DNA of 64,000 bases. Origin: Philodulcilactobacillus myokonensis. Its GTDB lineage: Bacteria > Bacillota > Bacilli > Lactobacillales > Lactobacillaceae. Where the stretch lies: positions 806,001-870,000 of the forward strand of contig NZ_BRPL01000002.1 in assembly GCF_027923585.1 (NCBI RefSeq), given 5' to 3'. The translations under genes and the position numbers were made by a program. The notes beneath the pieces are model-generated. The model saw nothing but the letters and a program-made list of their open reading frames with translations, had not been told where the DNA came from and searched no databases. Below, piece after piece: positions 1-7,734 of this stretch (position 1 is its first letter; each line of letters opens with the position of its first letter).

Positions 1-1692
1 CCGACCCCTGAAGTTATTTTTACCGTCCTACACGCTGGCGGGAAATTTAATCAGAATGATTATAAAACATCCGGTGGTCTTCATGGTGTTGGTGCAAGTG
101 TTGTTAACGCTCTTTCGACTAGTTTAACCGTCACGATTGTCCGTAATGGCAATAAATATCAAGAACATTTTGAAAATGGTGGTCATCCGGTTGGTACTTT
201 GAAAAAAATTGGCCCAACGAATGAACATAGTGGAACGGTTGTCACATTTAAACCGGATAGTAGTATTTTTACTACCACTGTTTTTAATTATGATATTTTG
301 CAGGAACGTCTAAGGGAATCAGCATTTTTATTAAAGGGATTAAAAATCACTTTAGACGATGAACGGGTTCGTCCCAAACGTGAAGATGTTTTTCAATATA
401 ATGATGGAATCAAAGAATTCGTTAAATATTTAAATGAAAATAAGCATACATTAGGAAACGTAATGTACTTTGATGGTAAAGAAAAGGGCATTGAAGTTGA
501 AGTTGCTGCCCAATATAATGATGGCTATACTGAAAATACTTTATCATTCGTTAATAATGTTCGAACTAAAGAAGGTGGAACCCACGAAACCGGATTTAGA
601 AGTGCCTGGACAAAAGCTTTCAATGAATTTGCTAAACGTGAAGGATTACTTAAAGCAAAGGACAAAAGTTTAGATGGAAAAGATGTCAGGGAAGGTCTTT
701 CTGCCATTATTTCATTAAGGGTTCCAGAAGAATTACTTCAATTTGAAGGTCAAACGAAGGAAAAATTAGGAACTCCGGAAGCTCGCTCAGTCGTTGATAG
801 TGTTATTAACCAGAAATTAGGCTACTACCTGATGGAACATGGTGAATTTGCTAGACAACTAGTTAAGAAATCAACTAAGGCTAAAAAAGCACGTGAAGCT
901 GCTAGAAAAGCACGTGAGGAAAGCCTTCATGGTAAAAAGCACCATAAGCAGGAACGTCTATTATCAGGTAAATTAACACCGGCCCAATCTAAAGATACAA
1001 GTGAGAATGAATTGTTCTTAGTCGAAGGTGATTCAGCCGGTGGTTCAGCTAAGCAGGGTCGCGATCGTCGTCATCAAGCCATTTTACCTTTAAGAGGGAA
1101 AGTGCTTAATACTGAGCGTGCTAATTTATCTGATATTATGAAAAATGAAGAAATTAGTACGATGATCTACACGGTTGGCGCTGGTGTTGGATCTGAATTT
1201 AAATTAGCTGATGCTAACTATGATAAGATCATCATCATGACCGATGCGGATGATGATGGTGCCCATATTCAAATTCTTTTATTAACATTCTTCTATAAAT
1301 ACATGCGTCCAATGATTGATGATGGAAGAGTTTACATTGCATTACCACCTTTGTTTAAAATTCAAAAGAAGTCCAATCATAAAGATAAAATTGCCTATGC
1401 ATGGACAAATGAAGAAAGAAATCGTAAAGTAAAGGATTTTGGCAAACATTATTCTGTCCAACGTTTTAAGGGGCTTGGTGAAATGAATGCGGATCAATTA
1501 TGGGAGACCACTATGGATCCAAAACATCGAACTTTAATTCAAGTTCACATTGATGATGCCCAGTTAGCTGAAAAACGAGTTACAACGCTGATGGGGAAGA
1601 AAGTTGCACCCCGCAGAAAATGGATTGAAGACCATGTTCAATTTAATTTAGAAGAAAATGGCAGCATTTTAGATAACACAAATAATAAATAA
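1..1692 (+). CDS. parE: DNA topoisomerase IV subunit B, 5' end outside window
   Basis: ATPase subunit of topoisomerase IV, which with ParC decatenates daughter chromosomes using ATP. The frame is open from base 1, before the first internal ATG (199). The upstream codons read SGGLHGVGASVVNALS, the conserved GHKL ATPase lid, so the gene is cut by the window edge. The transducer domain follows. The TOPRIM motifs are VEGDSAGGSA (about 1021-1050) and TDADDDGAH (about 1240-1266), with the metal-binding acidic residues intact. The C-terminus matches GyrB/ParE (RFKGLGEMNADQLWETTMDP). parC begins 17 bases after the stop, as in other Firmicutes. ParE is preferred over GyrB because the partner is a ParC-length subunit and no recF or dnaN is nearby. 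Confidence 0.96.
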   Translation, partial: PTPEVIFTVLHAGGKFNQNDYKTSGGLHGVGASVVNALSTSLTVTIVRNGNKYQEHFENGGHPVGTLKKIGPTNEHSGTVVTFKPDSSIFTTTVFNYDILQERLRESAFLLKGLKITLDDERVRPKREDVFQYNDGIKEFVKYLNENKHTLGNVMYFDGKEKGIEVEVAAQYNDGYTENTLSFVNNVRTKEGGTHETGFRSAWTKAFNEFAKREGLLKAKDKSLDGKDVREGLSAIISLRVPEELLQFEGQTKEKLGTPEARSVVDSVINQKLGYYLMEHGEFARQLVKKSTKAKKAREAARKAREESLHGKKHHKQERLLSGKLTPAQSKDTSENELFLVEGDSAGGSAKQGRDRRHQAILPLRGKVLNTERANLSDIMKNEEISTMIYTVGAGVGSEFKLADANYDKIIIMTDADDDGAHIQILLLTFFYKYMRPMIDDGRVYIALPPLFKIQKKSNHKDKIAYAWTNEERNRKVKDFGKHYSVQRFKGLGEMNADQLWETTMDPKHRTLIQVHIDDAQLAEKRVTTLMGKKVAPRRKWIEDHVQFNLEENGSILDNTNNK

Positions 1693-1708: not shown

Positions 1709-4162
1709 TTGAAGAATGGGCAAAACATCGAGAAATTAACGCTTGAAACGATTATGAGTGAACGTTTTAGCCGTTATTCCAAATCAATTATTCAAGAAAG
1801 AGCTTTACCGGATATTCGTGATGGATTAAAACCAGTTCAAAGGCGAATCCTATATGCCATGAATAAGGACGGTAATACTTTTAATAAAGCTTTTAGAAAG
1901 TCAGCCAAATCAGTCGGAAACGTTATGGGTAACTTTCATCCCCACGGGGATAGCTCAATTTACGAAGCATTAGTTCGAATGAGTCAGGATTGGAAATTAA
2001 GGGAACCGTTAATTGAAATGCACGGAAATAACGGTTCAATGGATGGTGATCCCGCAGCCGCAATGCGATATACTGAAGCCCGCTTAAGTAAAATTGCGAG
2101 TGAAATGTTACGTGACATCGATAAAAATACGGTTCATTGGGTTTTAAACTTTGATGATACCGAATATGAACCCACTGTCTTGCCGTCACGTTTCCCTAAT
2201 TTATTGGTTAATGGTGCAACCGGAATTTCATCCGGATACGCCACTAATATCCCGCCACATAATTTGGGTGAAGTGATTCGGGCATTAATTTATTTACAAA
2301 AGAATCCCGATGCATCATTAGATGATTTAATGCAGTTTATTAAGGGACCTGATTTTCCGACCGGTGGAATTGTTCAGGGACTAGATGGAATTAAAGAAGC
2401 ATATCGAACCGGTTATGGACGGATTGCCGTTCGTTCCAAGACTAAAATTGAGCAGATTCGTGGCGGAAAACAGCAGATTCATGTTTCAGAAATTCCCTAT
2501 GACGTTAATAAACTTCAGCTAGTTAAACAAATTGATGAAATCAGAATTAGTCGTAAGATTGAAGGAATTGCTGAAGTTCGGGATGAAAGTGACCGTAATG
2601 GACTTTCAATCATGATTGAATTAAAACGAAATGCTGATGCCGATGGAATTTTGAATTATTTATTTAAAAATACTGATTTACAAATTTCATATAGTTTTAA
2701 CATGATTGCAATTAATCATATGCGTCCAGAAAGATTACCGTTAAAGACATTCTTACAATCATATCTAGAATTTCAACGGTCTGTCGTTGCCAAGCGAACC
2801 GATTTTGATTTACATAGGGCCCTTGATCGAAAAGAAATTGTTAGTGGTTTAATTAAAGCTATGTCAATTTTAAGTCAAGTCATCAAAGTAATTCGCCACA
2901 GTAAGAATCGCCGTGACGCAAAAGATAATTTAATGAAATCATTTGAATTTTCTGACCGTCAAGCTGAAGCAATTGTTACTTTACAACTATACCGATTAAG
3001 TAATACAGATGTTTCAGCTTTAAAACGTGAAATGGATGATTTGAACGCGCGAATCAATCGTTTCCATCAAATTCTGGACAATCATGATGTTTTAGATACC
3101 GTTTTAAGAAATGAACTACAAAAGATTGAAAAAGAATATAAATCACCACGCCAGACAAAAATTGAAGCAAAAGTTACACCTTTGAAAATTAGCACTGATG
3201 TTACCGTTCCAGATGAAGACGTTGTCGTTTTAGTTAGTCATGATGGTTACTTAAAGCGGAGCAGTATTCGTTCATATAAAGCATCAAATCGAAACGAGAA
3301 TGGATTGAAGCCGGATGATTATCCGATTTTTATGAAAAAATTAAATACCAGAAATTGTCTTTTTATGTTTACTAATAAGGGGCATTTAATTTACCGTCCC
3401 GTTTATGAGATTGCTGATGCAAGGTGGAAGGAAACTGGAGAGCATATTTCACAGACCATTGGATTAGATCATAATGAAGAAATTATTGCAACATATCCAT
3501 TCAAATCTTTAAAAGAAGCGAGTGGGATGTTCTTGATTGCTACTAATGATGGTCATATTAAACGAACCCTAGTAAGCAAACTAAAACCAGGACGTAATTA
3601 TCATAGCCATGCCACGGTTTACCAAAAAATGAAGGCTAATCAATCAATCGTTGTTAATGTTTTGTATCTAAAACCAGATTTACCTAAAACAACCATTTTG
3701 CTAATTTCCAATCAGGGATTAGCCACTAGATACGATCTAGCACAAATTTCCATCACTGGTGCTAGAACCATGGGAGTTAAATCAATGAATTTAAACAATG
3801 GTGATCTAGTTGCTGATGCTCAATTAGTTGATGATCAAGATCAGATTGGAATCATTACCCAAAAGGGCTTTTTTAAAAAATTAGCTGTAAAGGAAATTCC
3901 AATTACAAATCGTGGAACCAAGGGAATGTTAGTTCTAAAGAAATTAAAACGTGATCCACATCAAATTAATGACTTTATCAAAATTAAATTTGATGATGAT
4001 AATCAACCATTTCCACTAAGGGTTTATACCGATCGTAAACGTAGCCATGATATTTTACCGTCCGAATATAATTTAAGTGCCCGGACTAGCAATGGATTTA
4101 ACGTGTTGGATGTTAAAAAGGAAGGCCGTCCGGTTCAAATTACTAATTTATGGTTTAAATAG
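1709..4162 (+). CDS. parC: DNA topoisomerase IV subunit A
   Basis: Breakage-reunion subunit of topoisomerase IV, partner of ParE, 817 residues. Translation starts at TTG 1709, 8 bases after an AGGGAG ribosome site; an ATG would lose the conserved N-terminus. The winged-helix domain carries the catalytic tyrosine in AMRYTEAR (Tyr121). The quinolone-resistance-determining segment HPHGDSSIYEA keeps Ser82 and Glu86, so no classical resistance change is visible. A coiled-coil tower and a beta-pinwheel C-terminal domain follow. The gene forms an operon with parE. No clear terminator follows before ppaC. Confidence 0.96.
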   Translation: MKNGQNIEKLTLETIMSERFSRYSKSIIQERALPDIRDGLKPVQRRILYAMNKDGNTFNKAFRKSAKSVGNVMGNFHPHGDSSIYEALVRMSQDWKLREPLIEMHGNNGSMDGDPAAAMRYTEARLSKIASEMLRDIDKNTVHWVLNFDDTEYEPTVLPSRFPNLLVNGATGISSGYATNIPPHNLGEVIRALIYLQKNPDASLDDLMQFIKGPDFPTGGIVQGLDGIKEAYRTGYGRIAVRSKTKIEQIRGGKQQIHVSEIPYDVNKLQLVKQIDEIRISRKIEGIAEVRDESDRNGLSIMIELKRNADADGILNYLFKNTDLQISYSFNMIAINHMRPERLPLKTFLQSYLEFQRSVVAKRTDFDLHRALDRKEIVSGLIKAMSILSQVIKVIRHSKNRRDAKDNLMKSFEFSDRQAEAIVTLQLYRLSNTDVSALKREMDDLNARINRFHQILDNHDVLDTVLRNELQKIEKEYKSPRQTKIEAKVTPLKISTDVTVPDEDVVVLVSHDGYLKRSSIRSYKASNRNENGLKPDDYPIFMKKLNTRNCLFMFTNKGHLIYRPVYEIADARWKETGEHISQTIGLDHNEEIIATYPFKSLKEASGMFLIATNDGHIKRTLVSKLKPGRNYHSHATVYQKMKANQSIVVNVLYLKPDLPKTTILLISNQGLATRYDLAQISITGARTMGVKSMNLNNGDLVADAQLVDDQDQIGIITQKGFFKKLAVKEIPITNRGTKGMLVLKKLKRDPHQINDFIKIKFDDDNQPFPLRVYTDRKRSHDILPSEYNLSARTSNGFNVLDVKKEGRPVQITNLWFK

Positions 4163-6693: not shown

Positions 6694-6730
6694 TAAAAAA
6701 GCATCTGTATTAAATTACAGGTGCTTTTTT
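6694..6730 (+). terminator. Terminator after the 74-residue ORF
   Basis: AAAAAAGCATCTGTA pairs with TACAGGTGCTTTTTT around a 6-base loop, giving a stem with runs of A and T on either side that could work in both directions. Confidence 0.85.
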
Positions 6731-6763
6731 ACAAATCATATATAAAATTATTAATTAATGTGT

Positions 6764-6980
6764 TCTTACATCCGAGCATATTTTGCTCATCCATATTCAC
6801 CACATGAATGTGATTATAACGAATATCATAATCATTTACTGTATGAATATTTTCTTTCCTAAGGAAACGAACTTTAAACGAATTTCACTTGATGAAATTA
6901 ATGAACGTCCTAGACGGACTTTAAAATGGAAAAATGCGAACTATAAATTTCAACGTGAAGTTAAAAAACTTTGCTACTAA
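6764..6980 (+). pseudogene. Decayed IS30-family transposase, C-terminal remnant
   Basis: Two adjacent frames together spell the end of an IS30-type DDE transposase. The first (codons from 6764) reads YFAHPYSPHE then NEYHNHLLYEYF, matching the family's YFAxxYSxxE and NENHNGLLREFF block that holds the catalytic glutamate. It then hits a stop. The second frame (from about 6840) continues FFPKETNFKRISLDE and ERPRRTLKW, matching FFPKGTDF and NxRPRKxLxW. A frameshift near 6850 and an internal deletion before NERPRR break it, and the first three quarters of the gene are missing. The 65-codon open frame here is therefore not an independent gene. Confidence 0.82.
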
Positions 6981-7028: not shown

Positions 7029-7056
7029 ACTTCGCATAATATGTATTATGTAAAGT
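7029..7056 (+). other. dif: dif-like XerC/XerD recombination site (chromosome terminus)
   Basis: Twenty-eight bases with the architecture of a bacterial dif site: left arm ACTTCGCATAA (XerC side), 6-base centre TATGTA, right arm TTATGTAAAGT (XerD side). From memory of the B. subtilis dif, 23 of 28 positions agree, including 10 of 11 in the XerD arm. Protein-coding strand changes here: every gene to the left is on + and nearly all to the right are on -, as expected where the two replication forks meet. A XerD gene lies in this window at 43.1-44.0 kb. The site sits in non-coding DNA between the IS30 remnant and a terminator. Confidence 0.85.
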
Positions 7057-7092: not shown

Positions 7093-7130
7093 AATCAAAA
7101 AGCTTGGATATAATCCAAGCTTTTTGATTT
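7093..7130 (-). terminator. Terminator of the folT operon
   Basis: AAATCAAAAAGCTTGGAT pairs with ATCCAAGCTTTTTGATTT in a near-perfect stem with a T run, directly after the last gene of the folT unit. It is symmetrical and could also stop + strand readthrough. Confidence 0.88.
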
Positions 7131-7142
7131 AAATATTTAAAT

Positions 7143-7706
7143 TTATCTTTGATATTTTTGAATAATGCTGCAGCATTTTTTAGTTATTTCATTCAAGAAC
7201 TCATGAACTGAATTACCATTATGTATAAATTGGTCAACAGCCTTATCTAACCAATTTTTATACATATCACTAATATGGTTTCTGCCTGATCGATAATTCC
7301 AGAAATTTTTGGGAACAATTTGGCTTGTAATCTTGCTTAATTTTTTAGTTTTCACAACATTGCTAAAATGAACGCTGTCATTAATATCTTCAGCATCATA
7401 ACCAACAATTCCGTTTCTAGATTCATCCAATGGTAATCCAACTGATTTAAGTAAATTGCTTAACGTTTCTGAGCTGCTAGCCATCGTTTGCTGGTTAATA
7501 TGTTCCCAACGTTTAACAAAATTATCTGCCGTAGCAATTCCTAAGGCTGATTCTTTAAGAGCATCTTCAAAACTATAAATGCGATATTGATGGGCAATAT
7601 TTTCACAATCAGCCATGGGTAATACTTTAATTAAGAATATGAGCGTATCTCTATCATTCAAAGCATTAGCTAAAGGCATATTTAAAATTTGACTACTACT
7701 TCTCAA
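7143..7706 (-). CDS. Unrecognised protein downstream of folT
   Basis: Product of about 187 residues that I cannot assign. The start is TTG 7706, because a GAGGAG site lies 9 bases upstream; the longer frame from TTG 7727 has no site. The protein is soluble with mixed charge and no membrane segment or signal peptide. It contains the segments ESALGIATADNFVKRWEHI and NFWNYRSGRNHISDMYKNW and a Cys-Cys pair close to the C-terminus. The chosen start lies 28 bases after the folT stop, with no terminator between, and it shares the folate riboswitch. A link to folate uptake or use is inferred only from that context. Confidence 0.75.
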   Translation of the reverse strand: MRSSSQILNMPLANALNDRDTLIFLIKVLPMADCENIAHQYRIYSFEDALKESALGIATADNFVKRWEHINQQTMASSSETLSNLLKSVGLPLDESRNGIVGYDAEDINDSVHFSNVVKTKKLSKITSQIVPKNFWNYRSGRNHISDMYKNWLDKAVDQFIHNGNSVHEFLNEITKKCCSIIQKYQR

Positions 7707-7734
7707 GTTAACAATCTCCTCTTTCAATCAAAAA

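Follow-up and report, generated by a model that had tools for sequence, protein, structure and literature searches.

A probable chromosomal dif site of Philodulcilactobacillus myokonensis and its topoisomerase IV and Xer neighbours in Lactobacillaceae

The dif site and its surroundings

The window analysed here, 64,000 nucleotides at positions 806001–870000 of contig C2 in a four-contig assembly, opens with the topoisomerase IV genes parE and parC (Table 1). The parE frame is open across the left window edge and starts approximately 260 bases outside. Both genes are transcribed towards a 28-bp imperfect palindrome and end 2.87 kb to its left. The AT-rich hairpin to the right of the palindrome is, from its letters, probably a terminator. 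An orphan ORF of 194 amino acids (7143–7727, minus strand) adjoins the palindrome; it gave no weighty match in Pfam, NCBIfam or PHROG, and no homologue in the 40 dif regions described below. Just left of the palindrome, a peptide ending FPKETNFKRISLDEINERPRRTLKWKNA (6762–6977) resembles by eye the C-terminal end of an IS30-type transposase, but it was set aside as a transposon remnant when neither Pfam nor NCBIfam gave a match and tblastn against the same 40 regions returned nothing.

Table 1. Features at and around the palindrome (window coordinates unless a contig is named).
Feature	Position	Strand	Remarks
parE, topoisomerase IV subunit B	1..1692	+	TIGR01058 best family, 737.8 bits for the part in the window; cut-off 899.95 for the whole
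parC, topoisomerase IV subunit A	1709..4162	+	TIGR01061, 970.6 bits; cut-off 813.25
dif site (probable)	7029..7056	+	ACTTCGCATAA-TATGTA-TTATGTAAAGT; unique; conserved in relatives
Putative XerC-side arm of dif	7029..7039		By analogy with B. subtilis
Putative dif centre	7040..7045		By analogy with B. subtilis
Putative XerD-side arm of dif	7046..7056		By analogy with B. subtilis
AT-rich hairpin	7093..7129	.	AATCAAAAAGCTTGGATATAATCCAAGCTTTTTGATT; right of dif; read by eye
XerD tyrosine recombinase, 295 aa	43122..44009	-	TIGR02225, 379.5 bits; cut-off 329.6
XerC-like recombinase	C2:801580-802488		10.5 kb left of dif, outside the window; 326.6 bits, cut-off 335.15; adjoins hslU

The palindrome is almost certainly the chromosomal dif site of a Lactobacillaceae bacterium, judging from its sequence and setting. 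The earlier note on this DNA had placed dif at this position, and the letters are present there as it gave them. Two 11-bp arms with imperfect dyad symmetry flank a 6-bp centre. The site agrees at 23 of 28 positions, on recounting, with ACTTCCTAGAATATATATTATGTAAACT, which is taken here to be the B. subtilis dif sequence; the earlier note had given the same figure. Relative to this sequence, left-arm positions 6, 7 and 9, the centre TATGTA and the G last but one are different. An exact copy of ACTTCCTAGAATATATATTATGTAAACT is present in each of the Bacilli genomes G133 and G186, and the centre TATGTA is shared by G009 only among the other 25 genera aligned. The arms are named after the B. subtilis site, where CodV is placed on the left arm and RipX on the right (PMC5357621).

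No second match to the 28-mer at up to three mismatches occurs in the 64-kb window, where the chance expectation is 0.00. Across the whole assembly (1,672,155 bases), the site is the one match at this threshold, against none for a reversed-pattern control. A single copy is characteristic of an XerCD-type chromosomal dif, and the several equally good sites that would have spoken against the earlier note were not found in the assembly. Read from its sequence, this would be a canonical dif: an ordinary, important site whose value as a discovery is modest.

Position on the chromosome

Cumulative GC skew over C2:792001–870000 reaches its maximum at window position 6723, 306 bp left of dif. Inside the window the skew is +0.115 left of dif and −0.103 right of it, and just left of the window it is weakly positive (0.026). 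Sampled along C2, all 10 stretches taken between 150 and 780 kb have positive skew and all 7 taken between 930 and 1358 kb have negative skew, with values of −0.122 (0–8 kb), −0.026 (74–82 kb) and +0.006 (1407–1415 kb) near dnaA and the contig ends. The dnaA gene lies at C2:77999, 735 kb from dif, or 44% of the 1.67-Mb assembly, a figure that is a share of an unclosed assembly with 257 kb on three other contigs unplaced. With the genome in four contigs, no definite length can be given for the other arm. Within this unclosed assembly, dif lies at the strand-polarity switch opposite the origin.

Gene orientation changes at the same place. All five non-nested ORFs of at least 80 amino acids to the left of dif in the window are on the plus strand, compared with 3 of 50 to its right (6 of 54 with nested ORFs included). 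The earlier note was correct that the left-hand genes in the window are all on the plus strand; its count of four plus-strand genes among more than 50 to the right is replaced by these figures. Beyond the left edge, plsY and a two-gene block are on the minus strand, and the switch is therefore sharp rather than absolute. The claim that dif fixes the terminus and explains the layout of the window is supported by the single site, by the skew turn, with no distant switch observed, and by the distance to dnaA. It is the point of dimer resolution that dif marks, and the fusion of replication forks is not bound to that exact spot, as reported for B. subtilis (PMC13220808).

Xer recombinases, FtsK and the proposed mechanism

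The genome contains three phage-integrase domains, belonging to XerD, a XerC-like protein and a protein on contig C4. XerD is encoded 36.07 kb from dif, in agreement with the 36 kb of the earlier note. XerC was identified with a score slightly below the curated XerC cut-off, in a gene beside hslU. Both Xer proteins carry the catalytic motifs GLRVSE or GIRVSE, H-x-L-R-H and LGH...Y, which in XerD read GLRVSE, HTLRH and LGH...Y. The third tyrosine-recombinase domain (C4:136037–136516, in a 211-aa open frame) is probably that of an integrase. A single FtsK-gamma domain was found at C2:702231 (PF09397, 85 bits).

The genome has no XerS-type match over the cut-off, giving with this model two weaker XerC/D-type matches. 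The best difSL-like score in the window, 15.4, falls inside the background. Consequently, the XerS/difSL module, in which a 31-bp difSL lies beside the XerS gene, was not found in this genome.

On the E. coli and B. subtilis models, a mechanism may be proposed. Once an odd number of crossovers had joined the sister chromosomes as a dimer, a septal FtsK translocase would pump DNA along the arm polarity until both dif copies meet. XerC, bound to the left arm, and XerD, bound to the right, would then exchange strands across the 6-bp centre and so yield two monomers. Binding, the order of strand exchange and FtsK dependence are all presumed here from the same two models.

Conservation of dif and alternative readings

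A degenerate dif pattern, allowing up to two mismatches, matched 109 of 121 Lactobacillaceae genomes, representing 33 of 36 genera; its reversed control matched 2 of 121. The pattern is not always single, because four of the 109 genomes (G021, G029, G045 and G079) have a second, separate and poorer match; in these, the best match was used. Across 26 genera, represented by one genome each, the 28 bp have a high information content; two bases on the left and about five on the right (mostly AGAA/T) are moderately informative, and the sequence beyond these near flanks is poorly so.

The presence of dif follows that of its recombinases. At least two XerC/D-type matches were found in 108 of the 109 dif-bearing genomes versus 2 of the 12 dif-less ones (Fisher p 5.6e-12, a value that ignores the relatedness of the genomes). 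These are non-XerS matches to the XerS model at E ≤1e-20, counted by eye, in a class that lumps XerC, XerD and possible integrases, unsorted per genome. The one dif-bearing genome without two such matches is G042, a draft of 160 contigs. When the 12 dif-less genomes were searched with the XerD model at E ≤1e-40, five gave no match, the four of genus g6 gave one match each, under the cut-off, G103 gave one over the cut-off, and G053 and G060 gave two each. G053, G060 and G103 are draft assemblies of 80–100 contigs, in which gaps may conceal dif or a Xer gene. With G042, G053 and G060 as exceptions, the orthologous site is conserved in relatives and lost with the recombinases. Thus genomes tend to keep both dif and the XerC/D pair or to lose both, and this speaks indirectly for function.

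These data bear on other readings of the palindrome. It lies between convergent gene sets, with terminator-like hairpins discernible by eye on both sides, and might be taken for an inverted repeat that arose by chance, or for a transcription terminator between these genes. That reading is very improbable given the chance expectation of 0.00, the separate hairpin downstream at 7093–7129, and a pattern that recurs in 33 of 36 genera with no conservation of sequence beyond a few flanking bases. It is no more credible that the site is a relic, with dimer resolution taken over by a different system as in XerS-bearing relatives. XerS is indeed present in 33 of 121 family genomes, eight of them without a dif match, but this genome has no XerS over the cut-off, its other candidates are two weaker XerC/D-type matches and the further integrase on C4, and the dif site and both recombinases look intact.

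Xer-using mobile elements could also leave an attachment site of this kind, as a dif module or IMEX. The possible transposase remnant on the left and the orphan ORF without a convincing family on the right would fit such an origin. Against it, the site is present in a single copy, no second dif flanks an insert, the remnant matches neither Pfam nor NCBIfam, and the site sits at the skew turn, as a housekeeping dif does; of the readings considered, this origin is the most improbable.

Topoisomerase IV genes beside dif

The proximity of parC to dif extends across the family and into several other families of Bacilli. In Lactobacillaceae, the two are on one contig in 95 of the 109 dif-bearing genomes, with a gap of at most 10 kb in 43 pairs, at most 15 kb in 70 and at most 25 kb in 81. 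From either side, parC points at dif in 93 of the 95; the exceptions, G016 and G105, are single-contig genomes in which the dif–parC interval appears to span the record ends. Genera g2, g7, g9, g16, g17 and g36 account for 12 of the 14 pairs separated by more than 30 kb.

In a class-wide sample, 67 of 141 genomes matched the dif pattern. Besides the genome studied here, 66 pattern-bearing Bacilli remain. A ParC-type hit was obtained in 49 of these, and in 36 it shares a contig with dif. Eight of these 36 sites were set aside by eye as chance pattern matches, a step that favours linkage because all eight are more than 270 kb from parC. Among the remaining 28 pairs, 17 lie within 25 kb, 26 within 100 kb and all 28 within 200 kb, and parC points at dif in 28/28; with none dropped, 17 of 36 lie within 25 kb. 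In G133 and G186, parC is 2.8–2.9 kb left of the exact 28-mer ACTTCCTAGAATATATATTATGTAAACT, as it is of dif here. Another genome, G207 (family f4, a single contig of 2.62 Mb with a canonical dif at 1264831), has one match to the ParC query, near the contig start and with a GyrA-like score; it may be without a separate topoisomerase IV.

As a control for neighbouring genes, 37 ORFs from within approximately 20 kb of dif in this genome were compared with 40-kb dif-centred regions from 20 Lactobacillaceae genera and 20 other Bacilli, two of the latter cut by contig ends. Because the regions were chosen by hand, with parC near dif throughout the first set and in part of the second, the parC counts are biased, and the other genes form the informative part. 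In the two sets respectively, parC was kept near dif in 20 and 11 regions, parE in 20 and 9, and plsY, which is back to back with parE, in 20 and 8. Counts for the other genes fell more: 18 and 0 each for a DHH-family gene and an aldose-epimerase-like gene (a weak family match), 16 and 2 for xerC (the two at 27–30% identity), 16 and 2 for the NFACT gene, 15 and 0 for hslU, and 15 and 2 for DegV. The msrA gene occurred in 8 and 6 regions, at scattered places. In the sampled sets, parE–parC with plsY therefore outlast the other neighbours. The skew is positive left and negative right of dif in 18/20 Lactobacillaceae and 17/20 other Bacilli regions, with a local skew maximum within 1 kb of dif in 13/20 and 10/20.

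Inherited gene order alone could explain the parEC–dif linkage; selection for late replication of the decatenase genes may be put forward as a hypothesis. No earlier paper on parC–dif linkage was found in a literature search whose scope took in few subscription papers. In E. coli, the topoisomerase IV genes are not known to lie beside dif.

It was expected that the linkage to parC would reveal hidden dif sites in the 12 pattern-less genomes, an expectation that failed; 10 of the 12 are without an XerC/D pair in the count made with the XerS model. A weight-matrix search for a divergent dif near parC found none above background in the 12, a loose pattern search gave in most of them about as many hits as the control, and comparison of palindromes shared past parC in genus g6 yielded no convincing site. 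A degenerate candidate in G031 (C1:500564, 7.5 kb past parC and 210 bp from the local skew maximum) was rejected, as its score of 11.8 is inside the null (95% at 17.1). G031, a single-contig genome of genus g32 and the closest ParC relative, gave no XerD-model match at 1e-40, no XerS-model match at 1e-20 and no dif. It is possibly a lactobacillus without the usual Xer system, or one with a very divergent system.

XerS and difSL-like sites beside dif in relatives

XerS scored over its curated cut-off in 33 of the 121 Lactobacillaceae genomes, from 14 genera; that of G014 has an internal stop and that of G042 is cut by a contig end. XerS and dif occur together in 25 genomes, spread over 11 genera; at least two XerC/D-type matches are present as well in 24 of the 25. 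XerS occurs without a dif match in eight genomes (genus g6 and four others). In 23 genomes the two are on the same contig, and XerS is then at most 1.3 kb from dif in 21 and 6.3 and 15.5 kb away in the other two. The 5′ end of XerS faces dif in 22 of the 23.

A de novo motif search upstream of xerS recovered palindromes such as ACTTTCATTAAAACAGACATTTTAATGA. With the resulting difSL-like matrix, 18 of the 33 XerS genomes score 25 to 36 bits, comprising 16 of the 25 with dif and two of the eight without (G028 and G107). Around dif in those 14 of the 20 Lactobacillaceae that have no XerS, its best hits reached at most 17.5, and this background is the only independent measure because the matrix was trained on the sites that it scored. 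Of the 16 genomes with dif, 15 have the palindrome between dif and xerS and G118 has it on the far side; in G102 it is 0.76 kb from dif and 14.7 kb from xerS. Of the 15 XerS genomes without a matrix hit, G007, G071, G074 and G100 (genera g8 and g13) have another strong palindrome approximately 100 bp upstream of xerS, and the rest have no convincing palindrome upstream.

In two Lactococcus species, the sequence upstream of xerS reads CTTTCCGAAAAACTATAATATTCTTGAAAG, which is identical at 24 of 30 positions to CTTTCATTAAAACTATAATTTTAATGAAAG from several Lactobacillus species. The streptococcal difSL arms (PMC5357621) were also tried as a query beside XerS and were discarded as unconvincing, the best match having 5 mismatches of 21.

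A scan of named relatives covered the best 80 of 449 loci, with flanks of at most 3 kb. In these 80, a difSL-like hit of at least 19 bits was found at 34 loci and dif in the flanks of 20, all 20 of which also had such a hit. Among the same best 80 of 449, dif was found by eye in the flanks of 0/27 Limosilactobacillus loci (2/27 with short flanks). Genus g6, which has XerS and neither dif nor an XerC/D pair, is probably Limosilactobacillus. The loci of L. ultunensis, L. gallinarum and L. kitasatonis, which are relatives of L. helveticus, had neither dif nor a difSL-like site near xerS among the best 80 of 449. In many Lactobacillaceae that also retain two XerC/D-type genes, XerS, often with a difSL-like palindrome, lies within approximately 1 kb of a canonical dif (series L149–L168, L169–L186 and L188–L267).

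Possible transfer of the XerS module

The identities of XerS and ParC are uncorrelated (Spearman 0.09, p 0.26; 171 between-genus pairs from 20 of the 33 XerS genomes). XerS of G094 is 84–87% identical to that of genus g15, and ParC 62–63%. At blastn sensitivity, the DNA common to G094 and g15 runs from the difSL-like site through the end of xerS and no further, and the shared unit is therefore the difSL–xerS module. G094 and three of the four g15 genomes carry this module at most 1 kb from dif. XerS relatives were found in 514 of 72,556 plasmid records (E ≤1e-30), where all 15 among the matches listed are annotated xerS, and in 4 of 50,697 phage records (E ≤1e-20). One of five plasmid xerS loci examined has a difSL-like palindrome upstream (22.8 bits) and four have none. 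Plasmids may have been the source of the XerS module.

From these observations, a wider proposal can be made, with about even chances of being right. The dif zone would be a fixed functional address in Bacilli, with parE–parC staying beside dif and pointing at it through the turnover of other neighbours. Some Lactobacillaceae would have acquired a difSL–xerS module by horizontal transfer, and it would have come to lie within approximately 1 kb of dif because a resolution site can work only in the zone defined by FtsK; two complete dimer-resolution systems would then run in parallel in these genomes. In lineages such as Limosilactobacillus, the process would have reached its end, with XerCD/dif displaced by XerS.

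Comparison with known systems

The system described here shares with B. subtilis dif, CodV (XerC) and RipX (XerD) the 28-bp length, the 11-6-11 layout, the right arm TTATGTAAA, the position at the terminus and the use of two recombinases. It differs in that one FtsK-gamma gene was found, with the SftA and SpoIIIE types not sorted apart. With E. coli dif, XerCD and FtsK it has in common the working principle, two recombinases and a septal translocase with a gamma domain; the letters of E. coli dif differ from those of the P. myokonensis site. The XerS/difSL system of streptococci and lactococci has the same task and terminus position, and adjoins dif in relatives of this genome. It differs in having a single recombinase and a 31-bp site with other arms, and was not found in the P. 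myokonensis genome.

XerS was reportedly taken by Le Bourgeois et al. in 2007 as a landmark of streptococci and lactococci. In the parts of two papers that were consulted, XerS is given for streptococci and lactococci only (PMC5357621, PMC2731167). Kono et al. (2011; PMC3025954) reported XerC, XerD and XerS in L. helveticus, with xerS near the skew shift and dif not found, and regarded this species as a possible intermediate arising from horizontal transfer; no XerS site was found there. Their strain DPC 4571 resembles the relatives studied here in combining XerCD and XerS in one lactobacillus with xerS near the skew shift, and differs in that neither dif nor an XerS site was found in it, whereas 16 of 25 dif- and XerS-bearing genomes here have a difSL-like site. 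The finding of dif, XerS and difSL-like sites together extends the remark of Kono et al. on L. helveticus. As far as the literature search goes, the presence of dif, a difSL-like site and xerS side by side in many genomes is new.

Perspectives

For P. myokonensis, dif anchors the map of the genome, namely its terminus, its arms and its strand layout. The parC–dif and XerS–dif patterns are worth more than dif itself and deserve follow-up. The linkage of topoisomerase IV genes to the terminus is testable by moving the genes, and genomes in which both Xer systems are adjacent make it possible to ask how a chromosome-resolution system is replaced.
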